The notes under the pieces are model-generated. The model was not told the origin of the DNA. It worked only from the letters and a program-made list of their open reading frames with translations, and did not search any database. The position numbers were made by a program, and so were the translations under genes. A DNA stretch of 21,330 nucleotides from a virus. This document shows positions 76-21,098 of this stretch, one piece after another. The DNA lies in IMG/VR virus record IMGVR_UViG_3300047564_003886, positions 1-21,330 of that record. One strand, given 5' to 3'. Positions within the stretch are counted from its first letter, which is position 1, and every line of letters starts with the position of its first letter.

Positions 76-246
76 ATGAAAATTAATCTTTGGTATTGCG
101 AATCTTTTAAAGAATGGAGATGGACTCTAACTGATGATCATCGTCCTATCTTGAAACAAGAATCGGGACAAAGACCAGATCTTAGAGACGCAATGAATGA
201 CATTGCAAATACTGTTGAATATATGTTAGAAGCTCAACAATCATGA
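76..246 (+). CDS. Small hypothetical protein, 56 aa
   Basis: A short frame opens with ATG at 76, 16 bases after the tRNA, and ends with TGA at 244-246. It encodes a 56-residue protein starting MKINLWYCESFKEWRWTLTD. The product is soluble-looking, with an aromatic N-terminal half and a helical tail (residues 35-53), and has no membrane segment. Its stop overlaps the next gene's start (ATGA at 243-246), the same coupling used by the next gene pair, which supports it being real. I recall similar short 'hypothetical' proteins in cyanomyovirus genomes but know no function. No clear Shine-Dalgarno sequence precedes the start. Confidence 0.7.
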   Translation: MKINLWYCESFKEWRWTLTDDHRPILKQESGQRPDLRDAMNDIANTVEYMLEAQQS

Positions 247-4400: not shown

Positions 4401-7400
4401 GTAGATGTGAGAGACATTATTAATGTTCCTTCAACTGAGGGTCTTGCTGTTGGCATGAAGGTTACTTCATATAATAATATTAATCCATCTAATAATACTG
4501 AACCATCTGGATCTCCTTCTGGTGTTGTACCACTCGATAGTTACATTGTTGAGATCATTGACGATACAACAATTAGAATTGGTGAAAAAGGTCAGTGGAT
4601 TTTTGGTCCCGAGGAGTATGATCCATCAACTGCAGATAAGTTTGTTACTCAGACAGTAACGGCATCTGGTCCCGGAACTGGACTTTTCCTGTTGTTCACA
4701 ATGCGTGATGAGCAAGTTCAGACATCACAAGATAATATCATTGCTGTAAGAGATGGCATCTTCTCATTAAAGAGAACTGTGTATGATGATTCTGTGGTTC
4801 AAGATGTTGTAAATATTGCATCTGAAACTGAATGTAGTGATATTGCGTCAGTTATTTCTGGACTCTTTACTGATATTACAACTCTTCTGTCTTCTCCATT
4901 TGGTGAAGATGGTGTAGAAAGAGTTGAACCATCAACTGATTTCTCTGCTTTATCAAAGAGAGCAACAATCTTTAGAGTTTCTGGTGGTAATCCACATGAG
5001 ATGGAAACAGGAACTGCTGTTAGACTTGTTCCAAAACCAGCACCAGGAAAAGATCCGGATCCTAGAGTTGTCAGACTTCCAAAGGGATTCAATACAAATA
5101 CTAAGTATTATGTGATTGCTCCAGGTAGAACTACATCGCCAGAAAATTATTCAAACACTAGCGCATTTAATTCTTCTGATCAAACAGTTTTCATGCTTGC
5201 ATCCACTCTTGAAAATGCAAGAGCTGGCAACTACATCTATTCACCAGAAACTGATGCAATTGATCCGGACATTATAATTGAAGTTAATAAGTATATTGTC
5301 GATCAACAATATGATCTATATCAATACACTTCTAAAATTTCTGTTGGTGCTGGTAGCGGTGTAATTGAGACAGATCTTGCTCACTCTTTTGACATTCCTT
5401 CTCCAAATGTAGAACCACAGAAAGTATTCTTTAGACAAATTGATGTTGATACTCCTCTACCACAGAGAACAGTTAATATTGGTATTAACTCATTCCAGAT
5501 TGCATTAGATCCACAGGATGAATTCTATACAAGATTTATTACTGCAAATCAATTCTGTATCTATGAAACATTTGACGATGCAAGAAATGATATCAATAGA
5601 GTTGTATTAAATGGATCTCAAAAATTTGTTTCTTATGCAAACAAGAGATTTAGTCCTCTAAGATTTGATCCAGCACCACTTAGTTATGGAACTAGAACTA
5701 ATTTAACGGGTCAGTGGTATCTTCAGGTTAAGTCATACAATGATGATGGAGAAAATCCAGCAACAAGTATTCTAAGAAGAATCACAAAACCAGAAGATAC
5801 AACATATTCAGGTTCCGCCCCAGCATCTACTAGAAGTAATGATACTTGGTTTGAGCGTGTAAATGATAAGAGAATTCCTGAAGATAGAGTTTACAAACTC
5901 AGATATGTAATTCCTAAGTATCTAGAAACGGTTAGAGATCCTCTGAATGGATTTGTAATCAAACTCAGAACTGACACCAAGAGAAGACTAAGACCACAGA
6001 AGATTGTTCTGAAACCAGTAGATATTAATCTACATAGCACCTCAGATTCTTATAATTCAACTTCTGTTGCTACTTTCCTCAACAACGGAACATTTGATGA
6101 TACTGGATTATACACAAATCCTGCAGAAAAATTAGGAAGAACTTCCACTTCCTATGAAAATGAGAACGTAACACCACTCTATGATCCATATGTTAACCCT
6201 AAGGTTATTGAAACTATTGGAAGCAAAACAGCATTCTCTGTACAATCTGCTAAAGTAGTAACACAATCAAGATTTGAAAATGGAGTTAATGTTCCATATA
6301 AGTATCTTGAATTGACTGCCTTTGATCACACAATTGTTAATCAAGGTTTGAAAAATGAGTCTTTCACAGTTGTACAGATTGATGCTCCTCAGGGTATTGG
6401 ATTTACTGCAAATACTTCGGTAAGCAATGAAACTAACCTAATTCAGTGGAGTGGTCATAGCTCTGGTACTGGATTCCTTCATGGATATTTCACCACATCA
6501 AATCCAACAACATCACCAAAATCTGTACAACCACAAAGATATTTCCTGATCATTAAAAATATTATTGATGGCGAAATTAATTATAATGGTTTAGTTGCAA
6601 CTAATTTCTTCCAAGGAGGAGACAATCTAACTAATTCACTATGCAGAGCAAAATTAATTGCTAAACCAAATAGCACTGGAGATGCTGACGGAAAGAGTAA
6701 GTCCGATAGGAAGGACTATCTCTATTCGATCAAGGGCTCTAATGTTTATACAATCACTCCTGGTGACATTGTAAGAGATGATGCTGGTGTAGATTATTAC
6801 GTTGATTCTGTCAATGATGTTGGAGAAATTGAAGATACATTCTATATCTTTGACATCCAAGAACTCAAGGAAAGAATTCCTGGTCAGCAAGATGGTATTT
6901 ACTACTTAATTTGTCTCAAAGGAAATGTTTCACCATACCCAGTTGGTCCTGGTGTTGGCACTAACTTTAGAAACTTTAAGTTCTCACAACCTATTTCTTC
7001 TCTGTATCCACAAGATTATAAAAATGATCCATTCTGGTTCAAACAGATTGATAATTCTTTAAATGATCCTCCCGCCTCTTATTGTGCCGCAGACAACTAT
7101 GTGCATGGTTTGGTTACAATCAACGATGCAAGATATAGCGAAACTAAAGAAGCAGTTAGCTTCCTGATCGAGAACCCAGCTCTTGAGGAATATACATTCG
7201 ATAATGATATTCAGGCAGACATTGATGCTAGACTGAGAGCACAGCCTGGTAATGCTCTTGCTGGTGCTGAAGATCGTAAGATTCCTATTAAGGGTATCAA
7301 TCAGTATCCAACCGATTCAAAACTTTATGTAGAACTTCGTAGACCATCTATTGCTCGTTCTGGAAACCACACCTTTGAGTATCTTGGATTTGGTCCTGGT

Positions 7401-10400
7401 AACTACTCAACTGGTTTCCCACTCCGTCAAGAAGTTATTCTTACTGACAAGCAAGACTTCTATGCTCAGGCAAAGAGAGAAGATGGTGGCATCGTATTCT
7501 ACACTGGTCTAAACTCCAATGGAGACCTTTACATCGGTAACAAGAAGATTAATGGTATTACTGGTGAAGAATCGTTCTTAGAATCTGCTGCTCTAATTGG
7601 TTCGGAAGATACTGATGATGAAGTTGGTGGAACTCTCGTTACCACTTTTGAAACCCCAGTAACATTTAACAATAAAATTAGTGTAAATGGTGTTGCTGCC
7701 TTCACTCAACCAGTTACAATTCAGGTTGACCCAGAAGATAATATTTTCCCAATTGTTTCTCTGAGAGTTCAATCACTTGTTGACTCTGCAAATCTTGGTG
7801 AAGATCCAACTCTTGATAGATCTTCATTCTTGAACAGAAACCTAGGTGATATTACAATTGGTAAAAACAGAATTCAATCTGCGATTTTTGGAATTAATGC
7901 TAGAGGTAATACTGCGTATACTGGTCAATCGTATACAGTAAGAACTCACTACATGACTGAGGCAGATGAACTGGGTTCATTTACAGTTAATAGACCTTCT
8001 AATCTAACTCCAGAACAATCACCACTTATCTTTGATTCTGGAAACGTTCTATCTGCTAACTCAAATAGACTATTTGCAAATCAGCAAGTATTCTATGGAA
8101 ATAGTTCCAATGTTCCACAACCAGGAGATATGCTTCTCAAGGGTAAGGAAGTTGGTAAGTCTGGATCATGGAGTTGGATCTATGCAAATACATTCTTGAC
8201 GATTCCAAATAATTTAATTGGAATTATTGCAACTCCAAAGCGTAATCAAATTGGCGAACTGGTTGTAAATGCTGGTACTGGACCAAACTTTACAGCACAA
8301 CCTCTTGTTAGACTTGTTTGGGCAACATTGAATGGTGCTCAGTTAACAAACCAAGACATCTTTGATGATTATGGTCTGACCGTAAACTCATTGATTCGTG
8401 TCTCTGGCGTTGAGAATGATCTGTTTACAATTTTCAATGGAACATTCTCAATCTTCCCAGATACCTATAATATCAATAGTCCATTCATTGATGTTCGTGT
8501 TAATCAAAATATTGCTTCTGTTGATATTTTTGAGGACTGGGGAGATTATGAACCAAATGCTGAAGTTTCTGTTTCCAATTCAGTTTGGAAAGAAATGGGT
8601 GTACTTGGTGCTGAGGCCATCAGAACTGAGACAAATAGAATTGGTCAGTATAAAGTTGGCATCAACACAGTTGCTAGAACAAACCATAGTGCATATCTAA
8701 CAGGATTTGTTGATGCTGCAACCACCGATCCACGCGCAAATCTTGATGTATTTGGTAACACGTTTATTAGCGGTAGAACTCTTGTAGATTATCGTAATCC
8801 TGCGTTTGCACAAACACCTCTCACAAGACCACTCAATGATTTAGATAATGCCTTGCTTGTTGGTGGCAACGCATATTCGCCAAATGATCTTGCAATCTTT
8901 AGAGTTTCTACCACAAATGGAGGAAGAGTTGGCATTAATTGCACAAATGCACAACTTAATGGTACAGCAGATGCACAAATTTTCAACAAAGATTTTGCAG
9001 TACAGGGTAGCGCAGCAATCAGTGGAAATCTGAGAGTTGAGCAAGATGTAGAAATCAATGGTGCCCCATCTGAAGTTTATGACGGCAGTTATGTAACAGC
9101 AGATCTTACCTCCAGAGCTCCTACATTTAACCTTGTAAATACTAGTTTCCTCAGCACATTAAATGTTGGTGCATATGCTTCAACAATTAATATGTTCAAT
9201 ACCTGGGATCAATCTCAGACAATTAACATCGGTACTAATGCTGCTAATGATCTAAATGACGATACAACTACTACACTTAACATTCACACCAATTCTGCAA
9301 AATCTACAGTTAATATTGGTACAGTTGTTGGAGGTGGTGGTGAGAATGAATCGAAGATTACAATTGGTGGTGCTATTGGATCTCCAAATAATTCTTTCTT
9401 CAATATCAAAAATTTCAGAACCATTTTTGATGGTAAACTGGTAATTCGTGGTGGTGCAAGTCAAACTAATGATGTTGGATATATTGAATCTGAAGGTATT
9501 CAGAACTTTGAATTCTTACCAGATGGAATTAGAACTCTGAACATTGGTAGACGAGTAGGAACACTGAATATTGCTGGTACATCTGGAACAACTACTATTA
9601 GAAATAGTTGCGATATTCTTGGTTCTGCTCTTGTCAAATCCGATATCACATTGGAAGGTGGACTAAGAAATACCAGTCTTGGAATTGAGAGAAACATCTT
9701 TGGACAAATCGCCCCAAATTCTGCTTCCCGCACAAATAATGAAGTAACAATTACAACATTATCTAATCATAATTTGACTAATGGCGATACAATTCGTGTT
9801 TACCTGTCAATTGAAGATCTTGCACCAGCAGGAACAACAACAGCAACGGTACTTACTCCAACTACATTTAAATATGCTAACGTAGGTTCTAATGTTTCTA
9901 CTACATTAGTAACTGGTACAGTTGTTAAAGTTGGTGTTGGATCTCCTCAAGGTGTAGGAAATCTAGAACAAAACAATCTCAACGTAGATTATTATGATCT
10001 GATCTCGCAAATTGCTCCTCTGAGAACAATTACAACAGTTACTACAGCACCTAATTATAAACTGCTACTTGATTTTAACTATTTTACTGAAAATGATCCA
10101 GTAATCTTTACTGATGTTGGAAATCTAACTGGAGTTCAAACTGGAGTTACTTATTATGTTCTTGATTCCGAAGGATCTTCTCTCACGGGAGCAGGTGGAA
10201 CTGCTGGTATTATTCTAACCACTACACCTGGATCTAACACTCCAATTCCGATTGGATTACAGAGCGGAACAACAGACGCCGGAAATTCTAAAATTTATCT
10301 TGCATTCACTTCGATTCAAACTCAGGGTGATGTCCCATGGGGCGGTCCTTCATTCCAAAATCCTGATGGATCTTATAGATTATATGTAAATAATCCAACT

Positions 10401-11927
10401 GGACTTGCAGCAAATCAATATCTATTGATTAATACTGAAGTTCTATTCACAACAAATGAACCATCTCTGACATATCCATACTATGTTGATGTACAAAGAG
10501 GTGTTGATGGAACTAGACTGCAAGCACATCCATCTGGAGATAGGGTATATGCACTTGGTAAGGAAGAAGGTGCTACATACATCTTCCCCAACCCAATTGA
10601 TTCCACATCTACTTCCCTCAACATTGGAGAATTCTCTGCAGTTGTTGAGCCAGGAGATCTCTTTAGATTAAATGCTGGAGGTGCTGGTGAAGAATGGGTG
10701 AGAATTACACAGGTAAATCTTTCCAATGCACAAAAATTTGTCATCAATAATGGTGACTTTGGTGATCAAGTAAGTCCACTTGATCCACTGGAAGTATTTA
10801 AAGTTACTAGTACAACTGGAAATACTAGAATTGTAGGAGATTTGACAATTGGTTATGATACAAGTAATAACGCACTTCTTGATGATGATGTTACCAATAG
10901 TGCAGCACAATTCTCCAGAACAGGAAGGGCATCCAGCACATCATTTAATGGTGGTGGATTAAATGAAACTGGTGGTGGTAATTTAAGAGTTCACAACTCT
11001 ATTGAACTTTCTGGTAATCAACTTACGACCTTACCACAGAGACAATATTTCGTAATTACTAATGGTGAGTTCCCAAGATTCCTAAGTGAAACTGCAACTG
11101 GAAACACGAGTATCTATGGTGGTGGTAATTTTACAATCTATTCCGATGAATACTATTCAAATGGTCCATGGAGTAAGACAAGAGTTAGCATTGCCGATAA
11201 CCTGAAGTTTGATATTCAAGGTGATACTGGTAATACTACAATTGCTGGTACTCTAAGAATTGGAGATGATTTAAACCTAGGAACATTGGTAGATAGAAAT
11301 ATACCAGAAGATGGATCTAATCTCTTTACATCTAGAGTATCGATCACTGCTGCAACTGGTGCAACAATTCTTGGTGAATCACTAACAATTACTGGACAAT
11401 CTAGTGCTACTCCTTCCGATGGTATTCCTGTTCTTGATGTTCAAGGTATTGGCGTAAGTGGCAACAAACCATTTACTATTAATCAGGATGCTTCTATTAA
11501 TGCATTTGGTAATGATAGATTCTTTACCAAGAATGGTGGAAGAAAACTGATCTTTGTTTCTGAGCAGGGTAACACACAGAATACAGCAAGAACACTCATT
11601 CCTAACCTGACTTATGCAGTAAGACCAACATCCAATCTTGTTCTTATTCTACCGACTTCCGGTGTGGAATCTGGTGATACAATTAGAATTGTTGATGTTG
11701 GTGGTGCTCTGAACTTTGCAGTGAACCTTGTAATTAGATCTGCTGATCCAATTCAGGGTCAACTAGGTGGAACAACTATTGGTGGACTTGTATCAACATG
11801 GGGTGGCGGTGAACTTGTTGTCAATACTCCAAATGCAGCATTTGGACTGATTTATCTTGCTTCTGTTGATGGAGAAAACAACTCTATTCCTGGAGCAAAT
11901 CAAGGTTGGTACTTAACCGAAATCTAA
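1500..11927 (+). CDS. Giant virion structural protein (probable tail-fibre or baseplate adhesin), 3475 aa
   Basis: The N-terminus (17-85) has YVSPDDFNATD, PFKTIQRAF and IMLMPGDHYIDNRPG, the layout of a pectate-lyase-like beta-helix start (as in DUF1565). I recognise it from cyanomyovirus structural proteins. Further beta-helix-like stretches include RGCSLVGYDLRRTIVRP (329-345) and about 660-720. A helical Cys module occurs twice (103-271 and 850-1125). A segment around 1945-2030, with FEYLGFGPGNYSTGFP, is also familiar from cyanophage fibre proteins. Then come NIG beta repeats (2575-2693), TGNT repeats (3100-3299) and a Gly/Asn-rich end. No signal peptide or membrane helix is seen. The start is chosen because MSLTRLDNLYSSKTGKYLYV matches remembered homologues and lies just after the late promoter; the Shine-Dalgarno is weak (GAAGAAA near 1473). 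The next gene begins one base after the stop. Exact virion position is unknown. Confidence 0.85.
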   Translation: MSLTRLDNLYSSKTGKYLYVSPDDFNATDNLDNRGNSPLRPFKTIQRAFLEVARFSYQPGANNDRFDQFSIMLMPGDHYIDNRPGLANYSIGGSNTARNRYFDAANLIEANKELIAYEAYARMLDNNPGFQTPTGSPQDCIDDVLDILNAIIYNVKFGGNDKTFDAALVYQNNPDLIASEQQESIEVYDNARELANLALIQAPISPLLHADYLTELSIGAPFEQYFDPTILVGPSIFGQSGANINYGQAETCADVQSSVNTLFSIIEEGINESLVFDDRQEPETLGELPVFNFDQESGQWDDNSIIDLRNPDNIYWKFNASTGGAIVPRGCSLVGYDLRRTIVRPLYVPDPADSNQGRTSIFNLTGGCYIWQFTIKDGDLSSNSPLYDVNENVGKVYYQKGNISTLAVPEYSHHKICIMEYAEEQELEAYYQKVGIAFSKYQPTIDDDGEFSALVQENRIVGPLSDTRSIESIKPIDTNIGQPNQKLVLEVTTKIDHGYFKDQYVAILNTGLDEETNGTFKVASISPTNPRLFTYEVPGKVSAGLGLTNFQTYRVGSGLSNNAVAQAEIDSVESASPYVFNCSIRSTWGLCGMWANGSKSTGFRSMVVAQYTGVSLQKDDRAFIRYDNFTNTWNQASLSDSFATVPYHTKGDAYWKDDWRNFHIRASDDAFVQCVSVFAVGFFDHFLMESGGDMSITNSNSNFGNTSLHSVGHKGYSFNQDKGGYITDIIPPQELSGGYGSNPNIASTNSTKIPYFPIDIVSSNDLSNKTKLFLGGDTVYDPSSRPAATLNGFRLGARPDEKLFLKLEPDVSGSGDTFSSTLTPTGVESYMVGIDFLNPTGISIDNKAQDAANLINSNKEFIQDEVYGYITTKYPDLLTDPELTMSLCRRDVGYYVDAIVQDLRLGGNINSIQAAEAYFVGGSLTYIQNEKDETIDALGVTRDLCIAAMRNWDYFLTGCSCSTATLPVDVRDIINVPSTEGLAVGMKVTSYNNINPSNNTEPSGSPSGVVPLDSYIVEIIDDTTIRIGEKGQWIFGPEEYDPSTADKFVTQTVTASGPGTGLFLLFTMRDEQVQTSQDNIIAVRDGIFSLKRTVYDDSVVQDVVNIASETECSDIASVISGLFTDITTLLSSPFGEDGVERVEPSTDFSALSKRATIFRVSGGNPHEMETGTAVRLVPKPAPGKDPDPRVVRLPKGFNTNTKYYVIAPGRTTSPENYSNTSAFNSSDQTVFMLASTLENARAGNYIYSPETDAIDPDIIIEVNKYIVDQQYDLYQYTSKISVGAGSGVIETDLAHSFDIPSPNVEPQKVFFRQIDVDTPLPQRTVNIGINSFQIALDPQDEFYTRFITANQFCIYETFDDARNDINRVVLNGSQKFVSYANKRFSPLRFDPAPLSYGTRTNLTGQWYLQVKSYNDDGENPATSILRRITKPEDTTYSGSAPASTRSNDTWFERVNDKRIPEDRVYKLRYVIPKYLETVRDPLNGFVIKLRTDTKRRLRPQKIVLKPVDINLHSTSDSYNSTSVATFLNNGTFDDTGLYTNPAEKLGRTSTSYENENVTPLYDPYVNPKVIETIGSKTAFSVQSAKVVTQSRFENGVNVPYKYLELTAFDHTIVNQGLKNESFTVVQIDAPQGIGFTANTSVSNETNLIQWSGHSSGTGFLHGYFTTSNPTTSPKSVQPQRYFLIIKNIIDGEINYNGLVATNFFQGGDNLTNSLCRAKLIAKPNSTGDADGKSKSDRKDYLYSIKGSNVYTITPGDIVRDDAGVDYYVDSVNDVGEIEDTFYIFDIQELKERIPGQQDGIYYLICLKGNVSPYPVGPGVGTNFRNFKFSQPISSLYPQDYKNDPFWFKQIDNSLNDPPASYCAADNYVHGLVTINDARYSETKEAVSFLIENPALEEYTFDNDIQADIDARLRAQPGNALAGAEDRKIPIKGINQYPTDSKLYVELRRPSIARSGNHTFEYLGFGPGNYSTGFPLRQEVILTDKQDFYAQAKREDGGIVFYTGLNSNGDLYIGNKKINGITGEESFLESAALIGSEDTDDEVGGTLVTTFETPVTFNNKISVNGVAAFTQPVTIQVDPEDNIFPIVSLRVQSLVDSANLGEDPTLDRSSFLNRNLGDITIGKNRIQSAIFGINARGNTAYTGQSYTVRTHYMTEADELGSFTVNRPSNLTPEQSPLIFDSGNVLSANSNRLFANQQVFYGNSSNVPQPGDMLLKGKEVGKSGSWSWIYANTFLTIPNNLIGIIATPKRNQIGELVVNAGTGPNFTAQPLVRLVWATLNGAQLTNQDIFDDYGLTVNSLIRVSGVENDLFTIFNGTFSIFPDTYNINSPFIDVRVNQNIASVDIFEDWGDYEPNAEVSVSNSVWKEMGVLGAEAIRTETNRIGQYKVGINTVARTNHSAYLTGFVDAATTDPRANLDVFGNTFISGRTLVDYRNPAFAQTPLTRPLNDLDNALLVGGNAYSPNDLAIFRVSTTNGGRVGINCTNAQLNGTADAQIFNKDFAVQGSAAISGNLRVEQDVEINGAPSEVYDGSYVTADLTSRAPTFNLVNTSFLSTLNVGAYASTINMFNTWDQSQTINIGTNAANDLNDDTTTTLNIHTNSAKSTVNIGTVVGGGGENESKITIGGAIGSPNNSFFNIKNFRTIFDGKLVIRGGASQTNDVGYIESEGIQNFEFLPDGIRTLNIGRRVGTLNIAGTSGTTTIRNSCDILGSALVKSDITLEGGLRNTSLGIERNIFGQIAPNSASRTNNEVTITTLSNHNLTNGDTIRVYLSIEDLAPAGTTTATVLTPTTFKYANVGSNVSTTLVTGTVVKVGVGSPQGVGNLEQNNLNVDYYDLISQIAPLRTITTVTTAPNYKLLLDFNYFTENDPVIFTDVGNLTGVQTGVTYYVLDSEGSSLTGAGGTAGIILTTTPGSNTPIPIGLQSGTTDAGNSKIYLAFTSIQTQGDVPWGGPSFQNPDGSYRLYVNNPTGLAANQYLLINTEVLFTTNEPSLTYPYYVDVQRGVDGTRLQAHPSGDRVYALGKEEGATYIFPNPIDSTSTSLNIGEFSAVVEPGDLFRLNAGGAGEEWVRITQVNLSNAQKFVINNGDFGDQVSPLDPLEVFKVTSTTGNTRIVGDLTIGYDTSNNALLDDDVTNSAAQFSRTGRASSTSFNGGGLNETGGGNLRVHNSIELSGNQLTTLPQRQYFVITNGEFPRFLSETATGNTSIYGGGNFTIYSDEYYSNGPWSKTRVSIADNLKFDIQGDTGNTTIAGTLRIGDDLNLGTLVDRNIPEDGSNLFTSRVSITAATGATILGESLTITGQSSATPSDGIPVLDVQGIGVSGNKPFTINQDASINAFGNDRFFTKNGGRKLIFVSEQGNTQNTARTLIPNLTYAVRPTSNLVLILPTSGVESGDTIRIVDVGGALNFAVNLVIRSADPIQGQLGGTTIGGLVSTWGGGELVVNTPNAAFGLIYLASVDGENNSIPGANQGWYLTEI
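1806..2312 (+). repeat. Helical Cys module, copy 1 (residues 103-271 of the giant protein)
   Basis: The first copy has DAANLIEANKELI (103-115), then C140-x2-D-V-x4-N-A-I with KFGGN ending at 160. A helix with EQQESIEVYDNARELANLAL (180-199) follows, then a second part TCADVQSSVNTLF (251-263). It aligns by eye with copy 2 at 4047-4874. It is predicted to be alpha-helical, unlike the beta-rich surroundings. Confidence 0.75.
4047..4874 (+). repeat. Helical Cys module, copy 2 with insertion (residues 850-1125 of the giant protein)
   Basis: The second copy has DAANLINSNKEFI (850-862), then C888-x2-D-V-x4-D-A-I with RLGGN ending at 908. A helix with DETIDALGVTRDLCIAAM follows, then the second part ECSDIASVISGLF (1111-1123). 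About 112 extra residues between the two parts, relative to copy 1, hold a small beta module (VDVRDIINVPSTEGLAVGM onward). The repeat is visible in protein but diverged in DNA. Confidence 0.72.
9222..9578 (+). repeat. NIG beta-strand repeats (residues 2575-2693 of the giant protein)
   Basis: A run of short strands with the core hydrophobic-N/T-I-G: INIG (2575), STVNIG (2602), KITIG (2619), LNIG (2680), TLNIAG (2688). The spacing and turn residues suggest a triple-stranded beta-helix or beta-prism shaft, as in phage fibre stems. The repeats are imperfect and the unit length varies. Confidence 0.55.
10797..11396 (+). repeat. TGNT-type beta repeats near the C-terminus of the giant protein
   Basis: Three copies of an approximately 19-residue unit with pattern hydrophobic-x4-T-G-N/A-T-x-I-x-G-x-L-x-I: FKVTSTTGNTRIVGDLTIG (3100-3118), FDIQGDTGNTTIAGTLRIG (3237-3255) and VSITAATGATILGESLTIT (3280-3298). 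A fourth, weaker copy, ETATGNTSIYGGGNFTIY, lies between the first two. They probably form a fibre shaft or repeated hairpins. Confidence 0.55.
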
Positions 11928-11928
11928 G

Positions 11929-13101
11929 ATGACAATATTTCTAAACAGACTCAAATCACATAGAGGATTCCCTGTAGGATCTATTATTCCATGGTCAGCA
12001 TCTGCAGGAGATATTCCTAAAGGGTGGGTTCCATGTAGTTCAAGCACATCGCTTAAAACTACAGATTATCCTCTTCTGTATAGACAAATTGGAAACATTT
12101 ATGGAGGTTCTGCTGGAGTTAATTTTAGACTTCCTCGATTGAATGATGGCACTAGTGCCGCAATGGATATGTTTAAGGGTCATTTTTATTATCTTCAGGA
12201 TAAAGGTGATGCACATAAACCCGAAAAATCCGTAATTAGTGATGATACATTTTGGCAAACAGTTGGTGGTGCTTTGACAGGCAATGCTCCATCTACAACA
12301 CAGACAAATTATGTGTCAACAGTTGATATCGTTGGAGAATTGAGTAATACAGACCCAGTAACTGGATCTGAATTGCAATTGTCTGCACTCTATAGTAGTT
12401 TTGAATTAATTGTTGGTGAATTTACTCAAGTTCTCATCCCATCTGGAAGAAAATTGGGAGACAAACATATACCAAATCATGGTCATGGATATAGTATTGC
12501 TGAAGGAGATGTTACAAACTATACAACCACTTATGGAACCAGAGCAAAAGATTGGTCTGGTGGAAGTTTACATGACGACTTTTTCTGTGATTTAGATTCA
12601 GAATCTGCTTGTATTCAAAGAGCAATTCCATTGGATCTTAATGGTACTCAAATGGCATCGATGCCAAATAACATTGGTCCTGGAGGATTGGCTGTAAGTT
12701 GGGCGTCGGCAGATATTAGATGGGGAGGGGGTTCATTTGGTGTTTGTCCCGGTGGTGAAACTGGATCACAATGTTATGATCCAACTCAAGGTGCTGATGG
12801 TTATACTGGTGGTGATATGTGGGCACATAGAGGTGGCACCAAATATTATTGGTCAAACTTATCTAAACCAGCAAGTGTTGCAGCAGACAGAACTTTTGCT
12901 AATGTGAGTGATCATGGTCATGCCGTTATGCAATATACATTCTCTTCTAAATACATAAGAGTTCTCAATCCAGCATTAGTTTCTGATGTTAGATTAAATA
13001 ATGTTGCTATTATTAATTCAACCGGACTCAATTTTGGCACAATTAATGCAAATACTGCCACACCAAATTTAACAATGACGTACATTATTAAAGCTTTCTA
13101 G
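11929..13101 (+). CDS. Tail-collar domain protein, short-tail-fibre/receptor-binding candidate, 390 aa
   Basis: The N-terminal part (14-72) is a phage Tail Collar domain: GFPVGSIIPW, IPKGWVPC, DYPLLYRQIGNIYGG and NFRLPRLND in the expected order. This domain occurs in short tail fibres such as T4 gp12. The C-terminal two thirds are Gly-rich, with two His-x-His motifs (HGH 184-186 and HGH 329-331) of the type that binds metal ions in T4 fibre tips. Cys residues at 220, 228, 273 and 282 are also present. The chain ends TYIIKAF, resembling the ends of the next two proteins. Translation is coupled to the giant gene (stop 11925-11927, start 11929). It probably trimerises and sits at the distal baseplate or fibre; receptor binding is inferred, not shown. 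Confidence concerns the collar call. Confidence 0.85.
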   Translation: MTIFLNRLKSHRGFPVGSIIPWSASAGDIPKGWVPCSSSTSLKTTDYPLLYRQIGNIYGGSAGVNFRLPRLNDGTSAAMDMFKGHFYYLQDKGDAHKPEKSVISDDTFWQTVGGALTGNAPSTTQTNYVSTVDIVGELSNTDPVTGSELQLSALYSSFELIVGEFTQVLIPSGRKLGDKHIPNHGHGYSIAEGDVTNYTTTYGTRAKDWSGGSLHDDFFCDLDSESACIQRAIPLDLNGTQMASMPNNIGPGGLAVSWASADIRWGGGSFGVCPGGETGSQCYDPTQGADGYTGGDMWAHRGGTKYYWSNLSKPASVAADRTFANVSDHGHAVMQYTFSSKYIRVLNPALVSDVRLNNVAIINSTGLNFGTINANTATPNLTMTYIIKAF

Positions 13102-13102
13102 T

Positions 13103-14002
13103 ATGTCCTACTATTCATTTCAAAAGGGAAAACATGGCGGAACAGCAGGATTTATCTTTCCTTTTTTTACGGCATTAAATGGTCTTACTCCAGATGAACA
13201 ATATGCTGAGTTAATTCCTGCTGGATTTTTGAAGTGTCAAGGACAAATTTTACCCGCTTCTCAATATAGAGCACTAGCATCAATTATTGGTGTTGGAAGT
13301 AATTGCATTTACAAAAAAGAAGGAGTCGAATTAGATGAGGCAGATGATAACGGAGAAGGTGGACAGATACAATTACCAGACTTAGGATCTAAATATATTG
13401 CTGGATCTATAAATCCAGGAATTTACAATAATTTAGAAACATCTGTATCAAATACACAGAGAGCAGGAATTGCTGTCGAATTGTTTGCGCTTGGGGACAA
13501 CATTGATTTCTTTTATAGTGGAGATTTTAAAGTTCCATCGAGATCATTGAGTGTTACTGGAAATATCGCTAGCGTATCTCCTCCGTCTTCAACCCCAAGA
13601 ACAACACTAACTCAAAGCAACTATTTACCTCATGGTCACAACTCAACCTTTAGTGTAGCTAGAAGAATCAATACTAATTGTAGAGCAATTAATAGTGCTA
13701 CTTGGAGGGCAAATAATTACTACTGCAGTAGAAGAGGTAGAGTATGTTTTGGTGATAGTAATTTTGGTGTGAAATTTACAATTGTTGAACTGACGGAAAG
13801 TGGCACTGATGCTGGATCTACACATAATCATACTGGTACTTTGCCTAGAATTACTTCTGAAAGTAAAGCAGCATCGATGCAGGAAACTTTAATCAATGCA
13901 TCATCTATTGTTACTAATGTTAAAGTGAGGACCAATACACAGGTGAAAATGGACGAATTCGCTCCAAAATACATCTTATGCGAATATCTAATTAAGTACT
14001 AA
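13103..14002 (+). CDS. Tail-collar-like protein, second receptor-binding candidate, 299 aa
   Basis: A diverged collar domain spans about 38-101: IPAGFLKCQGQILPASQYRA, then IIGVG, an inserted acidic loop (70-87) and IQLPDLGSKYIAGS. The C-terminal half again has two His-x-His motifs (HGH 177-179 in YLPHGHN and HNH 241-243). Basic and Cys-rich residues lie between them (C193, C208, C215). It ends ILCEYLIKY, like its neighbours' tails. The start follows the previous stop by one base (stop 13099-13101, ATG 13103), so the genes are coupled. The shared plan suggests that this and the 390- and 1569-aa proteins are paralogues or form one fibre complex. It is the smallest of the three and could be a fibre tip or an adaptor. 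Confidence 0.8.
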   Translation: MSYYSFQKGKHGGTAGFIFPFFTALNGLTPDEQYAELIPAGFLKCQGQILPASQYRALASIIGVGSNCIYKKEGVELDEADDNGEGGQIQLPDLGSKYIAGSINPGIYNNLETSVSNTQRAGIAVELFALGDNIDFFYSGDFKVPSRSLSVTGNIASVSPPSSTPRTTLTQSNYLPHGHNSTFSVARRINTNCRAINSATWRANNYYCSRRGRVCFGDSNFGVKFTIVELTESGTDAGSTHNHTGTLPRITSESKAASMQETLINASSIVTNVKVRTNTQVKMDEFAPKYILCEYLIKY

Positions 14003-14006
14003 GGAG
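14001..14006 (+). promoter_or_regulatory. Strong Shine-Dalgarno AAGGAG for the 1569-aa gene
   Basis: AAGGAG overlaps the preceding stop codon (TAA 14000-14002) and ends 7 bases before ATG 14014. It is the clearest ribosome binding site in the window and fixes this start. Other genes here rely on coupling or have weak sites. Confidence 0.85.
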
Positions 14007-14013
14007 TAAGTTA

Positions 14014-17000
14014 ATGGCAATTAAAATTCTTAGCTTAATTCCTAATGGTGGTCTCACTACTGATGGATATATTTCGGCTGTTACTTTAGTTAATAGCACA
14101 ATTACTTGGGAAGTAACCTTTTTAGATACAAATCACGCATCTGGTGGTATTAATGCAAACAACAGAGTAAGTGTTGTAGCATTTGAAGTTACTCCACAAC
14201 CCGGTGCTGGACTTGCTCCAATTGGAATTGATAATGGTGGTAGTGTAGTATATCAATCTATTCCTGGAGCAACATTTACCGGAATTGCACCAACAACTCA
14301 AGAAGAAATTGAACCACCAACATCAAATACTCCTGGTATATATCGCGTTACTTGGGAATCATCTTCGCAAAGTATCAGCAATAACGGAGATTTTTATAGA
14401 GTTAAATTAACTAATGGATTAAGTGGAGAAACAATTACATCAGAAATTCATTATTCTGATGGTGCTGCCCTTGTTCCTGGTGTATATGACGATGAATACT
14501 ACAAAAATTTATCTGCACAATTTCCTGAAGGTTTAGGACCAGCTGGAGATCCATCGAATTTTGCTGATAATAATTTTGATAGTTATTTTGCTGATATTGG
14601 ACCAAGACAAGTAGTTGTTAATGCACAACCAGAACTTGTCTCAGTTGCAGAGAATTATAATCCATCTTATATTGTAAGTGCTGGATCGACAGTTACAGTT
14701 TCTGCTGCTGCTTCATATACTAACTTAACGGTTAGTTCTCCAGCAGCTGTATCCGATATTGTCATCACATGGCAGAAGAGTTATAATTACGATCCTAGTA
14801 CAGGATCAGGAACTTGGGAAAATATTACGCTCCCATCTTCTGTTGCAGGCGAAGCAGACTATGCTGAGGTTACTGCTGGTGGTCAATCTGGACCTTACAT
14901 TTATGCTGTAACAGCAGATGGAGATCAGTATGCTCAGCGTAGCACATTAGAGATCAGTAGTATTGACGCTGGAGCAAATAATCTTTATTTTAGACCTGTT
15001 TATTTTGGACCATCTGCTCCAATTAATACTATTATTTCACAGAATCCATTTAGACTGATTGTAGATCCACAGATTACAATCATCAGTCAACCGGGACAAG
15101 CAGCAAATAATACCAAAAATACTGCATTTTGCTATGGACAGGGAAACACTAGTAATGGTGTATATACATCAGATTCTGGGGGTGATATTAGAATAACAAT
15201 CTCTGCTGTGAGCTCCGTTGGGGGAGGATCAACATTAAATTATAATTGGCAGTATAGAATTTTTGATGATGGTCATGATGGAACTGATCAGACTGAAGTA
15301 ACCGCTTCTGGATGGACTGGTCTCTCTCAAGGTGGTGTCGGTGCAAACAATTACTTCAGTATAGTACAAGGAACATCAACTGCAGATACTCAGGTTCTTC
15401 TGAGAAGAACTGAGTACTATGATAGGTATCAATTTAGATGTCTTGTTACTGGCAGTACTGGTGAAAATCAGGTTATCTCTGATACACATGAAATTTATAT
15501 GAGGGATAATAGATCTTGGCCAACTGCATTTAATGATCAGGGAAGCGCAGCATATACAATTACAACAAATGAAGATTTTTATGGTAATGTAACAGATAGA
15601 AGATTACTCACTTTATATCCAATTAGAACGGCATCTTTTACATCAAATCTTGAAGTTTCAAATTATCGTGGTATTCAAGGAAATGTCAGTCTTCAATGGC
15701 AAAGATCAAATGATAATGGATCTACATGGTTCGATGTAGGAAATCCTGATCAAACAATTACATCATTTAGAACTGATGGTGATGCAGGAAATCCCGATCC
15801 AGGAAGTATTTTATATCAAATTGGATATACAACTCCTCCATTGAAAATTGGACAGAATAGTGAATTGGTGAATCAAAATGATAATAATAGTAGATATAGA
15901 ATTAAATTGACATCTAGTTCTTACTATACATTTAATCCTGGTGGTGATAGATTAGATCCATCAACAATGAAAACTTTAATTCCGTGGTATTCCACTGATG
16001 CTGGATTTGGATATTATGGTACATTAAGTCTGTTTAGAGAAATCTTTATCATTGGTGAACCGAGTACTACGGAAGTTTTTATTCCAAATATTGCTGCATT
16101 TGAAGTTACTGCTGCTGCAACTAGTGAGGCATCTGGACTTAGATATCAATGGCAAGTTTCTACTGCCGTAAATAATGCACCATCAACCTGGAGTAATTTA
16201 AGTTCTGGTCCACTATTTGGTGTTACTGGACAAAACGTGGTATCTGGTCAAAATACCACAACGCTAACAATTTCTAACACAACGATTGCCATTGACAAAA
16301 CACGATTCTTTAGGTGTATTGTTTCTTTTGATGCCTCTGTGAATCCTGGTGCTCTTGCATCTGTAACTTCACAACCAGCACAGGTTAGAGTTATTCCAGA
16401 TAGATTTGATAGAATTACAACCATTGACGATAAATTTGTTGATGAATTCCAAGATGTAGAGTGGACTGTAGAAGCAACTACTCTTTCTCTTGCCACTATT
16501 ACATTCCAATGGCAAAGAAGTTATAATTATGGATCTTTGTTTCAAAATGCAACTTGGTCAGATCTCACAAGTGGAACGCAAGTAAATGGAGGAACTATCA
16601 CTGGTGCCTCATCAGTAGGAAATACTTCTACTCTATCAATTGGCGGCGTTCGCTCCGCAGTTGATAAAGGATACTACAGATTAAAAATGACATCTTTAGG
16701 TGGAATTGTTGCTTATAGTAACGTTGTATATCTTGGTGTCAGCAGTGTAGACATTATCTTTACTAAGAATTTTGCAACTTCTTTGACATTTATTGAGGAT
16801 AGTGTAGTTAGTCCAGCATTTGAAGTATCTGCATATGCTACAACTGGTCTTGATGTTTCTTATAGGTGGGAATACCAAAAAGTTGGAGGCACTTCATTTA
16901 CTGCGTTTGCTCTTGGACAAAATAACGAACCAGCAACTTCTAATCCATATCAACCAATGCCATTCAATAAAGACGCAAATTGGGATGGTGCTCAAATCAG

Positions 17001-18723
17001 AGCAGCTGCAATTATTCCTACACTTACAAAATATAGTAATGTAGCAACAATTGATGTTAGAAGAAGATTCTATTATTATGCTGACACTGCAGTTAGAACA
17101 GTTTCAATTGGAACTGCATTTAGTTTGGATCTAAGACCAAGTTGGACTGGATTGACAACACCAACATATGAATGGGAATATAGTGCAAATAGTGGATCTA
17201 CGTGGCAATCTGTAAATAATCTTGGAGCAGTAAATAATCTTGAAGTGTTATATATTGCTAATGTTCTTTCTAGTTACGATGGATATCTCTTTAGATGTAA
17301 GGTATCTCTCCCTCTTGTAGATGATTTCATTTATTCTAGAAACAATATAGGATTCGTTGATACAACAAATCCAGATGGAACTACAATTTCAGTTGTTGGA
17401 TATGGATACACAGAAAATATTGAATTGAATGCCATCAGTGCTCCAATTTATCCAGTATATGCATCTGCAGAAACAGGAAAAACTGGATGTGCAGTTGGAA
17501 CTGTAATTTGCATTCCAAAACCACCTGGATATGTCAACAACAATGATACTGCTGTTGTTGATGACATTTCATCATGGGGTTGTGCTCAATCTGGAGACCC
17601 ATTCTCTACTGGAAATGTAACTTCTGTGGTGACTTCTGGAGCAATATTTGATCAAAATCGTTCCTATTTGAATAGGGGTTATAGTTGGATTGATACGAAT
17701 ACATATCTATTCAATTCTGCTCTTGGTGAAGTTCGTAATACTCTTAGATTGCCAAAATGGTTACAAGTTGATGATAGATTCCCTGGATTTATTGAACTGA
17801 GAGGACAATGGTTACTTAGATCTGAATTTCCACTTTTATATGAAATCATTGGAGATGAATATGGAACTAGTGGATCTGGAGTAAACTTTAAATTTAAACT
17901 ACCAAACCCATATTCTAAAAAGATTATGGGAACTGGTGCTATCAATAGTCAAACTGGAAGAACTAGTGTTGTTCCATTATTTGATGCTAATGGTAATTCT
18001 GGTGGTGATAGATTGATTCCTGGAACAATTGGTGGTGTATACTTATACGAGAAATCTAGACAATTGCCACCAGGATCTCCTAATGTTTCTGGTCAACCAG
18101 ATGGAACTGCTGGATCTCCAGACCCAGCAACATTTACTCTGGGAACATACAGAACTGATGGATGGGAAGATGCTCAGGGAATTACATTTACTAATTTTGT
18201 TGGTAACTTTACATTTAGAGTTGGTCCCCTTGGCGGTGCTCTTGTTGCATCTCCTCCACCTCACCAGCATGTTGGTGTTGCAATCAGTGCTCAACAAGCT
18301 AGAGCAAGTTCAAACTGCGAAAGATCTTCTTTTATAAGTCCTGATTTCTATGGAGTGGATTATGGTGGAGGAGAACTTTTACAAGGTCCAGAATATATTG
18401 GTGGTGATGAGCGTGGTATTACACACACTCATGGATTATCTGACGATTCTGCACAATCTGGAAATAATTACACACTAAATCATGGAACTGGAAAGGGTGA
18501 CGTTGGAACGGGTGATACCTATACAAACAGCATCAATATTAATTTCATTCCTGGTTCTACTGACCCAACATTAAACGTGTTTCTGGAGTTTGCTGACGTA
18601 ACAATGTCCATTGCAAGTAGAAACAAATTTGATAATGCCCTTAAATTTTATGTAAGAAATTCTGAACCAATTCCAATTATCTCTAATTATTTTAGAGTCA
18701 AGTGGATGATTAAAGCATACTAA
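14014..18723 (+). CDS. Large Ig-like/tail-collar fibre protein, 1569 aa
   Basis: The first 200 residues form a beta-rich head with WEVTFLD and YRVTWESS strands. About seven Ig-like domains follow, marked by core tryptophans W253, W412, W562, W713, W833, W952 and W1054 in patterns such as LQWQRSNDNGSTW, most with a matching FRCxV or YRLKM strand. A collar domain then appears in two pieces: GCAVGTVICIPKPPG (1158-1172) and, after about 85 residues, FIELRGQWLLRSEFPLLYEI with FKFKLPNP (about 1259-1303). The C-terminal part has HQH (1417-1419) and HTH (1471-1473) plus His1490, probably metal sites, and ends WMIKAY. No membrane segment is seen. Ig-like domains in phage virions often bind surface carbohydrate; here that is inference. 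A strong Shine-Dalgarno supports the start. Likely a long fibre with receptor-binding tip. Confidence 0.84.
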   Translation: MAIKILSLIPNGGLTTDGYISAVTLVNSTITWEVTFLDTNHASGGINANNRVSVVAFEVTPQPGAGLAPIGIDNGGSVVYQSIPGATFTGIAPTTQEEIEPPTSNTPGIYRVTWESSSQSISNNGDFYRVKLTNGLSGETITSEIHYSDGAALVPGVYDDEYYKNLSAQFPEGLGPAGDPSNFADNNFDSYFADIGPRQVVVNAQPELVSVAENYNPSYIVSAGSTVTVSAAASYTNLTVSSPAAVSDIVITWQKSYNYDPSTGSGTWENITLPSSVAGEADYAEVTAGGQSGPYIYAVTADGDQYAQRSTLEISSIDAGANNLYFRPVYFGPSAPINTIISQNPFRLIVDPQITIISQPGQAANNTKNTAFCYGQGNTSNGVYTSDSGGDIRITISAVSSVGGGSTLNYNWQYRIFDDGHDGTDQTEVTASGWTGLSQGGVGANNYFSIVQGTSTADTQVLLRRTEYYDRYQFRCLVTGSTGENQVISDTHEIYMRDNRSWPTAFNDQGSAAYTITTNEDFYGNVTDRRLLTLYPIRTASFTSNLEVSNYRGIQGNVSLQWQRSNDNGSTWFDVGNPDQTITSFRTDGDAGNPDPGSILYQIGYTTPPLKIGQNSELVNQNDNNSRYRIKLTSSSYYTFNPGGDRLDPSTMKTLIPWYSTDAGFGYYGTLSLFREIFIIGEPSTTEVFIPNIAAFEVTAAATSEASGLRYQWQVSTAVNNAPSTWSNLSSGPLFGVTGQNVVSGQNTTTLTISNTTIAIDKTRFFRCIVSFDASVNPGALASVTSQPAQVRVIPDRFDRITTIDDKFVDEFQDVEWTVEATTLSLATITFQWQRSYNYGSLFQNATWSDLTSGTQVNGGTITGASSVGNTSTLSIGGVRSAVDKGYYRLKMTSLGGIVAYSNVVYLGVSSVDIIFTKNFATSLTFIEDSVVSPAFEVSAYATTGLDVSYRWEYQKVGGTSFTAFALGQNNEPATSNPYQPMPFNKDANWDGAQIRAAAIIPTLTKYSNVATIDVRRRFYYYADTAVRTVSIGTAFSLDLRPSWTGLTTPTYEWEYSANSGSTWQSVNNLGAVNNLEVLYIANVLSSYDGYLFRCKVSLPLVDDFIYSRNNIGFVDTTNPDGTTISVVGYGYTENIELNAISAPIYPVYASAETGKTGCAVGTVICIPKPPGYVNNNDTAVVDDISSWGCAQSGDPFSTGNVTSVVTSGAIFDQNRSYLNRGYSWIDTNTYLFNSALGEVRNTLRLPKWLQVDDRFPGFIELRGQWLLRSEFPLLYEIIGDEYGTSGSGVNFKFKLPNPYSKKIMGTGAINSQTGRTSVVPLFDANGNSGGDRLIPGTIGGVYLYEKSRQLPPGSPNVSGQPDGTAGSPDPATFTLGTYRTDGWEDAQGITFTNFVGNFTFRVGPLGGALVASPPPHQHVGVAISAQQARASSNCERSSFISPDFYGVDYGGGELLQGPEYIGGDERGITHTHGLSDDSAQSGNNYTLNHGTGKGDVGTGDTYTNSININFIPGSTDPTLNVFLEFADVTMSIASRNKFDNALKFYVRNSEPIPIISNYFRVKWMIKAY
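14626..17403 (+). repeat. Seven tandem Ig-like domains (about residues 205-1130 of the 1569-aa protein)
   Basis: Core W[QE] motifs recur at residues 253, 412, 562, 713, 833, 952 and 1054, giving spacings of 159, 150, 151, 120, 119 and 102. Most share Y/F-x-W-[QE]-x-S followed by GxxW, and several end in a strand such as FRCIV, FRCLV, YRLKM or FRCKV. Domain edges are approximate; the copies are diverged in DNA. Confidence 0.68.
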
Positions 18724-18743: not shown

Positions 18744-19790
18744 ATGTCTATTTTATTGTCAGCAAAACTGAACCATCTTAATTTGCCTGGATCAATTCCA
18801 AGTCATATTTTGTATGGAAATCGAAACTACAATTTGACTGCTGCTGATTATCAGTATGTAATGGAGAATCTTGGTAGTGAGTACTCTAATGATACTGAAA
18901 AATTATCTGTTTTTAGAGTAGAAAAGGATGACACTACTGGTCATGTGATTTACTTCTGTGAGATGGAGAAAACTGTATTTGATTTCCGTGAAAGAGAATA
19001 CATTAAAAGATATGCAATCAAAGAACTTACGAGCGAAGAGAGTAGTTATCTTTACGAGAAGTTTAAAGATTTTTTGAATAGATTTTATACTTCAAATATT
19101 GATGATTTTTATAATTATGTTGTTGACAATGTTGGTGGAACACCTCTAGTTGCTGCTAATATTCTTGAAATCAGAAATGAACTTCTTAGAGAATCTGATA
19201 GATACATGCTTTCTGACTATCCTCATGCTTCGGAAGAAGTAAAACAGGCATGGATTACATATAGACAAGAACTTAGAGATCTTACAGATCAAGAAGCATA
19301 TCCTAATGATTTTGTTAACATTCAGATTCCTGTAGCACCAGATGCTTTCGCACAATTTGATGTACTGAAAAATTATATCAGTATTGATAATACATTACTG
19401 AATGAAATTGGACCTGAGTTTATGCAGGTTGGTCTTGATAATATGATTAAGAATTTTGCTGGTGCTGCATTAAAAGTAGAAGTTCTTAAGTCTCTGTCTA
19501 AACTGAGAATTCCAATGTTTGTTGAGCAAGGATTGACAGCAGAAAGAGTTGTTGAGCTAAGAAGTGGTTTGGATAGAGCTCTATTTGATATTGGTACATA
19601 TGAGAATACTTCGGAAGAGAATCCAGATGCATGGAACGATGCCATGGGATATCTCAACTCTAAAGTAGAAGCAATTAACGAAAAGATTGCTGAATATGAT
19701 CTTGGATTTACAGTCGAAGATCTAATTGATGAACTTGTTGAAGAAACTAAAAAATCTATTGCTGCTGAGCAACTAATTGACGAACTATGA
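18744..19790 (+). CDS. Tail-fibre assembly chaperone-like protein (Phage_tail_APC-type segment), 348 aa
   Basis: Residues 144-196 contain RNELLRESDRYMLSDYPHAS, then AWITYRQELRDLTDQ and YPNDFVNIQIPVAP. This is the familiar pattern (RxxLLxxSDxxxLxDxP, AWxxYRQxLRDLT, YPxxxxWP) of phage tail assembly chaperones, family Phage_tail_APC. Those act on tail fibres and are usually much shorter or C-terminal in a small protein. Here the segment sits in the middle of a longer chain: an N-terminal 140 residues of unknown fold, and a helical C-terminal 150 residues with an acidic coiled-coil-like end (about 300-348). AAAAAGG at 18730-18736, 7 bases before the ATG, is a usable ribosome binding site. Placement right after three fibre/collar genes fits folding or attaching those fibres. 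A structural role is the alternative. Confidence 0.68.
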   Translation: MSILLSAKLNHLNLPGSIPSHILYGNRNYNLTAADYQYVMENLGSEYSNDTEKLSVFRVEKDDTTGHVIYFCEMEKTVFDFREREYIKRYAIKELTSEESSYLYEKFKDFLNRFYTSNIDDFYNYVVDNVGGTPLVAANILEIRNELLRESDRYMLSDYPHASEEVKQAWITYRQELRDLTDQEAYPNDFVNIQIPVAPDAFAQFDVLKNYISIDNTLLNEIGPEFMQVGLDNMIKNFAGAALKVEVLKSLSKLRIPMFVEQGLTAERVVELRSGLDRALFDIGTYENTSEENPDAWNDAMGYLNSKVEAINEKIAEYDLGFTVEDLIDELVEETKKSIAAEQLIDEL

Positions 19791-20167
19791 AAAATTTAAT
19801 TTTTGGATCAAATATCTTTACTGAAAGAGAAATTCAGGAGATGCTTGCTAAATTCACTCACAAGTGGGTGGTACATATTAAAGCAGTTGGATTGCTTGAG
19901 AATCCTGATAAAGAAATGGATACTTGGCAATTTTATTCTGTTATTACACCAACTCCAGTATTGAATGCATTAATCAATTCTGCTAAAGACTCACGCGAAG
20001 CTTATGTTCTTTTAGATACAATGGATGAGGCAACTGAAGCATATGAGCATTGGTTTGCAAAAGAACCTGAACTTTTAGAGTCTGAAAGGCATTTATATGT
20101 TAGAATGGTTATAATGTCACCTGATATGAGCTATGTCTTCACAAACGAATCTGCAGCACCTCAATGA
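19787..20167 (+). CDS. Hypothetical protein, 126 aa
   Basis: I do not recognise this family. The product is a small acidic alpha/beta protein with strands around WVVHIKAVG (28-36), WQFYSVITP (47-55) and LYVRMVIMSP (103-112), and a helix EATEAYEHWF (81-90). No signal peptide, membrane segment or catalytic motif is seen. Its ATG overlaps the stop of the chaperone-like gene (ATGA, 19787-19790), so the two are made together, and its end overlaps the next gene by 35 bases. Position after the chaperone suggests an accessory role in fibre assembly or an unrelated late function. Only the reading frame is well supported. Confidence 0.72.
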   Translation: MKNLIFGSNIFTEREIQEMLAKFTHKWVVHIKAVGLLENPDKEMDTWQFYSVITPTPVLNALINSAKDSREAYVLLDTMDEATEAYEHWFAKEPELLESERHLYVRMVIMSPDMSYVFTNESAAPQ

Positions 20168-21098
20168 TTTCATTAGGATATCAGAACAGCACAAAATTAC
20201 ACTAGAATTTGATTCTCCTGAGATCCTAAAGACAGCATTAGATGAATATCGTAATTCTATACTGGATTATGAAATTCAAAAAAGATTTAAAGAATCAACT
20301 TTTATGATTCTTTATGAATTGGATTTGGAAAAGAGAAAGACCGTATCATGTGGTGCTGTTATATCTCCTGCATATGTTCATTTCACTCCATATTCTCCAT
20401 ATGTTGATAGACATCTAAAAGTAATAAGATTTCTATTTGATCGTTATCCTGTGCTTGATATTGATGCTGGTTTTATGATCATGTGGTCTGGAAAGGAACC
20501 TCATGTGTTTGAGAATACAGAAGGATTTGGATATGTGATTCCATCATATGTTCCAATTGGTGCGCCACCAGTTACAATTACTGATGAAGAAGTGCTCAGT
20601 TTCTATGAAAAGGCATTGCTTTCTCCAACACAAAAGAAATTTTTAATGGATCAATTTGACATTGTTGGTCCATATTATGCTGAATTTGGCATGGATTCAA
20701 CTACTCCAAATAAGTATGGATTTCATGCACATATTAGGGAAGATGTGATAGAAAAACACTATCAACCATGGGCAGATTATAAAAATATGCATGGTGTATT
20801 TGATATGATTAATGCAGCATTTATGGGATCGTTAATATCTGTTCAAATGTCAACAGATAATAGAGATTTTTTTGGATTTGAGTTTGGTATACCAATTGAT
20901 CATGCAGCAGGGTTTATCGATAGACTAATTGAATTTAAATGTGTGGATGACGATATCCTCAAAACATTAAACTCTATTATATTTCCAGAGTTTTTGGACA
21001 ATATTGTGTTTAAACTCAGGTGGGAGAATAAAGATACACAAAACGTAAAAGTGTATCTTGAGACACAAAGTAGAGAGTTTATCGAGACCAGTTTTTAA
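20133..21098 (+). CDS. Hypothetical protein, 321 aa
   Basis: No family recognised. The protein is aromatic-rich (many Phe, Tyr), mixed alpha/beta and acidic, without membrane helices or a signal peptide. Visible segments include FIRISEQHKITLEFDSPE (13-30), a strand-rich middle with FGYVIPSYVPIGAPPVTITD, then YYAEFGMDSTTPNKYGFHAH and DNRDFFGFEFGIP. The alternation of beta pairs and helices hints at a repeated alpha/beta layout. The ATG at 20133 overlaps the upstream gene by 35 bases. It is preferred because no other ATG in frame occurs before residue 58, and the ATG at 20164, which would overlap the upstream stop, is in another frame with a stop after 13 codons. It closes the AT-rich late block; the sigma70-type promoter follows. 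Low certainty about function. Confidence 0.72.
   Translation: MSSQTNLQHLNDFIRISEQHKITLEFDSPEILKTALDEYRNSILDYEIQKRFKESTFMILYELDLEKRKTVSCGAVISPAYVHFTPYSPYVDRHLKVIRFLFDRYPVLDIDAGFMIMWSGKEPHVFENTEGFGYVIPSYVPIGAPPVTITDEEVLSFYEKALLSPTQKKFLMDQFDIVGPYYAEFGMDSTTPNKYGFHAHIREDVIEKHYQPWADYKNMHGVFDMINAAFMGSLISVQMSTDNRDFFGFEFGIPIDHAAGFIDRLIEFKCVDDDILKTLNSIIFPEFLDNIVFKLRWENKDTQNVKVYLETQSREFIETSF

Follow-up and report, generated by a model that had tools for sequence, protein, structure and literature searches.

Paired HxH motifs bracket a variable segment in three tandem gp12-like tail proteins of a marine cyanophage

We analysed a 21.3-kilobase viral DNA fragment, IMG/VR virus record IMGVR_UViG_3300047564_003886 (positions 1-21,330, hereafter the window), focusing on three neighbouring tail-tip genes of its plus strand whose products we call P1, P2 and P3. 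All three proteins have a collar domain related to that of T4 gp12, two His-x-His (HxH) motifs conserved throughout their families, a fast-evolving segment between these motifs and a related C-terminal strand, and the order of their genes is conserved as well. The explanation that we consider probable is that P1-P3 are receptor-binding tips, in which two metal-clamp sites would bracket a variable tip. The proteins would form trimers, with the histidines near the trimer axis binding metal, the tips would contact a receptor, and the three proteins might have separate roles.

P1 (390 residues; 11929-13101) is a gp12-like short tail fibre tip that matches PF07484 (E=3e-10) and phrog_4591 (short tail fiber). 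Its PF07484 collar domain covers residues 17-71 (11977-12141). Next come a first histidine cluster made of H180, H184 and H186 (HxxxHxH, including HGH184-186; 12466-12486), a variable segment of residues 187-328 (12487-12912), which is a putative receptor-binding tip with a low-confidence predicted fold, the second motif HGH329-331 (H329 and H331; 12913-12921) and the C-terminal strand YIIKAF (13081-13098). P2 (299 residues; 13103-14002), a tail collar protein encoded 1 bp past P1 with a gp12-like tip, matches PF07484 (E=2e-7) and, over its full length, phrog_4714 (tail collar protein). Its first motif is HGH177-179 (H177 and H179; 13631-13639), its variable segment covers residues 180-240 (13640-13822), its second motif is HNH241-243 (H241 and H243; 13823-13831) and its C-terminal strand is EYLIKY (13982-13999). 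The much larger P3 (1569 residues; 14014-18723) consists of about seven immunoglobulin (Ig)-like repeats followed by a gp12-like tip, based on phrog matches, on the spacing of the repeats and on comparison with phage S-H9-1. The repeat region (14014-17403) matches phrog_613 in four stretches and displays W-[QE] and F/Y-R-C/L strand signatures. The P3 tip comprises a collar domain at residues 1258-1298 (17785-17907), the motifs HQH1417-1419 (H1417 and H1419; 18262-18270) and HTH1471-1473 (H1471 and H1473; 18424-18432), the segment of residues 1420-1470 between them (18271-18423) and the C-terminal strand WMIKAY (18703-18720).

The coordinates, protein lengths, motif positions and C-termini given in an original prediction made from the DNA letters of the window thus proved right. 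That prediction also placed a collar domain in each protein. Pfam bears this out for P1 and P2; the P3 collar scores 19.7 bits, below the PF07484 cut-off of 24, and is recovered with a profile of the P1 collar (E=2.8e-16). P1, P2 and P3 contain no HxH beyond the two motifs of each. Both profile matches and conserved neighbourhoods assign P1 to phrog_4591, P2 to phrog_4714 and P3 to phrog_4924, and no NCBIfam model covers any of them.

The P3 counterpart in S-H9-1 is a bare 370-residue tip devoid of Ig-like repeats. In S-RSM4 and L012, the P3 protein harbours a large, glycine-rich insertion placed after the second HxH motif. The same P3 tip has thus acquired different long domains at different sites in these phages and in the window. 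P1, P2 and the short form of P3 share a common N-terminal start, Y-N/S-x-x-K...G, ahead of the collar (11929-11978 and 13103-13150 in the window; P3 of S-H9-1), which perhaps serves all of them for docking to the baseplate or giant fibre. Cysteine residues are found mostly or frequently between the two HxH motifs, with four of the five in P1 (residues 220, 228, 273 and 282) and three of the six in P2 (193, 208 and 215), making disulphides or additional metal sites possible in these tips.

The pairing of HxH motifs is correct as originally described and far beyond chance, and its conservation is decisive. In shuffled copies of each protein, at least two HxH motifs arise with a probability of 0.018 for P1, 0.0016 for P2 and 0.001 for P3. 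The motifs account for four of the five histidines of P2 and four of the nine of P3. Viral contigs and a small number of isolate genomes yielded 310 distinct open reading frames (ORFs) belonging to the three families. At least two HxH motifs are present in 305 of them, and the remaining five look like incomplete ORFs. In alignments of 69 P1 proteins (down to 18% identity), 79 P2 proteins and 20 P3 tips, the HxH columns are invariant save for a single P1 cell, at H184 (68/69), where the motif is shifted. The numbers of invariant histidines are five in P1, four in P2 and four in P3, the fifth in P1 being H180, which the original prediction had missed. Among the post-collar columns of P1 and P2, the histidines rank at the top, tied in P2 with two glycines only.

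The kinship of these proteins with gp12 was established by profile comparisons with 14 gp12 sequences of Straboviridae. P1 (E=1.2e-14), P3 (E=3.5e-11) and P2 (E=6.1e-7) all match, mainly through the collar. With a permissive alignment, and only then, HxH-1 of P1 falls on HKH445-447 of gp12 (H445 and H447) and the C-termini coincide. A Foldseek search with the P1 model returned the T4 gp12 tip as the top PDB match (1OCY, E=2e-3, probability 0.85). Neither the P2 profile nor the P3 tip matched any PDB sequence. Every one of the 14 gp12 sequences has one HxH and a YIIK-type end. T4 gp12 itself has a single HxH (H445) and ends with NYIIKVKE, and T4 gp37 has seven HxH past residue 880 and ends with FNYIVRLA. 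The related ends noted in the original prediction do match one another, and in the P2 family two hydrophobic residues and a K/R are found near the end in 119 of 119 ORFs, with family tallies likewise made for the ends of P1 and P3. The idea that these ends are peculiar to P1-P3 was nevertheless rejected, as T4-type gp12 (YIIKV) and gp37 (YIVR) end alike. P1-P3 are therefore gp12-like but depart from gp12 in two tested respects, the number of HxH motifs and, for P1 and P2, the shaft.

The variability of the regions flanked by the motifs had been put forward as a check, and the bracketed segment varies most, as expected of a receptor-binding tip. We computed median non-synonymous (dN) and synonymous (dS) divergence in a clade of 23 P1 and a clade of 17 P2 proteins, split at the two HxH motifs. 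In the P1 clade, dN before, between and after the motifs is 0.074, 0.262 and 0.032, for dS of 0.48, 0.68 and 0.54. The corresponding values in the P2 clade are 0.109, 0.301 and 0.086 for dN, and 0.47, 0.62 and 0.63 for dS. A blind two-breakpoint fit in the P1 clade delimited residues 193-337. Both breakpoints lie approximately 10 residues or less from the HxH motifs, which start at 183 and 338, and no shifted mask out of 396 equalled the contrast. For P2, the fit delimited residues 232-499, inside the motifs at 177-523, and 10 of 579 shifted masks reached the contrast. The length of the segment ranges from approximately 50 to approximately 350 residues within families. Of the pairs compared among the nearest relatives of the window, five of six for P1 and P2 and all six for P3 vary most, within the tip, in the inter-HxH segment; for close relatives of P3, identity is 32-39% between the motifs and 56-65% from the collar to HxH-1. 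The inter-HxH segment is thus the leading candidate for host recognition. Clean module swapping between the motifs was also looked for: pairs with flanks >90% identical and a middle only 56-64% identical exist, yet dS of the middle is barely raised, and fast amino-acid change is therefore the simpler reading.

Evolution under host selection is in line with a recognition role. When phage S-PM2d was evolved on Synechococcus WH7803, S-PM2d218, 219 and 224 had acquired non-synonymous mutations by day 39, and a series of single-nucleotide polymorphisms arose in S-PM2d220 later in the same host-coexistence experiment (PMC9910659). The GenBank record identifies S-PM2d218 as orthologous to the giant fibre, 219 to P1, 220 to P2 and 224 to P3. 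The inter-HxH segments of the last three cover residues 188-389 (219), 187-239 (220) and 800-948 (224). The proposal of metal-stabilized receptor-binding tips is thus partly borne out, by the gp12-like kinship, by the variable segment bracketed by the HxH motifs and by the changes of the orthologues under host selection. That P1-P3 allow a phage several hosts is unproven.

We propose the following model. P1, P2 and P3 would be the tandem products of ancient duplication of a gp12-like adhesin tip in a T4-like phage of marine cyanobacteria. Each tip is probably a homotrimer whose folding is assisted by the chaperone of the next gene downstream. Each chain would start with its N-terminal collar and proceed to a strand bearing HxH-1, extend into a variable loop or domain, come back through HxH-2 and end in the Y-I-I-K strand, which probably folds back to lie close to the collar, like its equivalents in gp12 and gp37. 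At each HxH level, the three chains would contribute six histidines to the binding of a single metal ion, iron or zinc. With two such ions, the outgoing leg would be stapled to the returning one, leaving the bracketed segment to diversify for receptor recognition. HxH trimers are known to bind iron in gp37, pyocin fibres and phage spikes, and zinc in crystallized gp12, whose native metal is uncertain (PMC6116203).

Several results weigh against this model. The P2 model has no PDB match in Foldseek, which limits the fold evidence to P1, and T4 gp12 carries a single HxH where P1-P3 have two. Past the collar, the alignments among P1, P2 and P3 are no more than marginal (E of 0.09, 0.002 and 6e-4), so that a common tip fold would rest on the paired HxH motifs and on the C-terminal strand that they share, and we do not claim it. 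The AlphaFold monomers have mean confidence scores (predicted local distance difference test) of 58.2 for P1 and 69.5 for P2, with values <50 over a large part of the inter-HxH segment and low ones around the motifs; only the collar and the C-terminal strand are well modelled, and the models are too weak to confirm or refute the placement of the histidines on an axis. For the window and L010, the relative closest to it, the P1 and P2 inter-HxH segments are 62% and 72% identical for flanks at 61% and 68%, and the middle is thus not more divergent in these pairs. Furthermore, the pairs used for dN/dS share ancestry and belong to clades that lie far from the window, and the dN/dS of 0.37-0.48 in the segment points to change that is relaxed or diversifying but does not prove positive selection.

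The alternative that survives best, although we regard it as rather unlikely, is that P1-P3 are structural parts of the baseplate or fibres. The HxH-bound metal would then merely stabilize the fold, the intervening segments would face the solvent under weak constraint, and recognition would take place elsewhere, e.g. through the giant fibre or other adhesins. A dN/dS <1 in the segment fits such a role, mutations also arose in further large virion proteins during the evolution of S-PM2d and S-TIM4, and Clokie et al. suggested that structural proteins of unknown role may replace the missing tail fibres (PMC2984593). However, the rate contrast tracks the HxH borders closely in P1 and falls inside them in P2, the segment varies several-fold in length within families, and the orthologues of P1, P2 and P3 all gained non-synonymous or high-frequency mutations under coexistence with the host.

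It is less probable still that P1-P3 co-assemble, or cap the giant fibre, as one composite fibre, with HxH pairs that might be shared across different chains. P1 and P2 have only approximately 16 residues before the collar and no gp12-like shaft, the common N-terminal start suggests a shared docking partner, and the gene order is strictly kept, all of which would suit a composite. In contrast, every protein possesses a complete HxH pair of its own, and the HxH sites of this kind that PMC6116203 describes belong to homotrimers. Lastly, that the HxH sites mainly load the virion with iron to exploit host iron uptake ('Ferrojan' or Trojan horse), receptor binding depending on the metal itself, would agree with the earlier proposal of HxH motifs in cyanophage tails as organic iron ligands, as relayed in PMC11705849, citing Bonnain 2016, but seems very improbable to us, as non-marine phages and pyocins use the same HxH structurally (PMC6116203) and the fast change is found in the protein between the metal sites, not in the sites.

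The genetic context is that of a cyanophage tail. Proteins of the window have relatives almost exclusively in myoviruses of Synechococcus and Prochlorococcus, and the window is a fragment of a T4-like cyanomyovirus whose nearest isolates are the Kyanoviridae S-H9-1 and S-PM2. A search of phage genomes at the DNA level gave no matches. Upstream of P1, a gene of the plus strand (1500-11927) codes for a giant tail-fibre protein of 3475 residues that matches a phrog_4527 tail family (E=0), contains no HxH, occupies the same position in S-H9-1 and S-PM2, and is orthologous to S-PM2d218. S-H9-1 displays the same succession of giant tail fibre, P1, P2 and P3 as the window, and so does S-PM2, but with three additional structural genes separating P2 from P3. 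P1 adjoins P2 in 121 loci, and their order is strictly conserved. The three genes thus form an operon-like run of gp12-like tail proteins whose order is constant across marine cyanophages. Directly after P3 on the same strand (18744-19790) is the gene of a 348-residue tail-fibre assembly chaperone (PF16778, E=5e-14; phrog_4697, tail assembly chaperone), found one gene further downstream in S-PM2.

Other features of these loci were recorded. All isolates examined carry several genes for 2-oxoglutarate-Fe(II) oxygenases beside or within the tail-fibre cluster (window 243-737; L002-L005), and a putative role in hydroxylation of fibre proteins is conceivable. The window gene at 243-737 matches phrog_274, whose label, 'DNA endonuclease V', looks wrong for an oxygenase. 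The S-PM2 RefSeq record (NC_006820.1, L003) lists 16 tRNA features inside the coding sequence of the giant tail fibre, at 2917-7744. ARAGORN detected no tRNA in that interval, and these annotations appear misplaced. Finally, a 321-residue protein encoded at 20133-21098 of the window has no match in Pfam, PHROG or NCBIfam.

The presence of HxH in cyanophage tails (PMC11705849) and database family names for P1-P3 are already known. In the literature that we searched, we found no description of the invariant HxH pair, of its occurrence in three tandem genes or of the variable segment that it brackets. By sequence, cyanomyoviruses appeared to be devoid of T4 genes 12, 34 and 37, and their receptor-binding proteins are therefore uncertain (PMC2984593). 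As a tentative extension, the two-clamp gp12-like trimer, three in tandem, might be the standard adhesin cartridge of marine T4-like cyanophages, with clamps that would hold the two legs of the chain and let the whole intervening stretch vary freely, and the bracketed segments might be the long-missing determinants of host recognition in cyanomyoviruses. These viruses are abundant in the sea, and the paired-HxH bracket offers a concrete and testable candidate for their recognition segment, as well as a simple sequence rule to mark the putative segment in hundreds of cyanophage tail proteins.

Compared with known systems, the entries for phrog_4591, phrog_4714 and phrog_4924 provide names only, with no description of the paired-HxH bracket or its variable content. 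The tail proteins of Alteromonas phage R22Y, of the Ferrojan horse model (PMC11705849), resemble P1-P3 in their HxH motifs, a feature of marine-phage tail proteins that extends to cyanophages. Nevertheless, R22Y has six HxH in the N-terminal region of a podovirus fibre, in contrast with two per protein around a variable segment. T4 gp12 (Straboviridae; PDB 1OCY and 5IV5) shares with P1-P3 the collar, an HxH after it and the C-terminal Y-I-I-K strand, with significant profile and fold matches. It differs in having an N-terminal shaft of approximately 340 residues and one HxH, whereas the cyanophage proteins are encoded by three tandem genes, P1 and P2 lack the shaft, and P3 has an Ig-like stalk instead. 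T4 gp37 likewise harbours several HxH after the collar and a C-terminal Y-I-V-R end, but its seven HxH are consecutive, unlike the two widely spaced motifs that bracket a long variable segment in P1-P3, and its sequence relation to them is confined to the collar. According to Tetart and colleagues, the 'His boxes' of T-even gp37 reportedly flank exchangeable regions of adhesin specificity. Those His-rich motifs would be similarly arranged around a variable receptor-specificity region, whereas P1 and P2 appear to diversify mainly by amino-acid change at similar dS.

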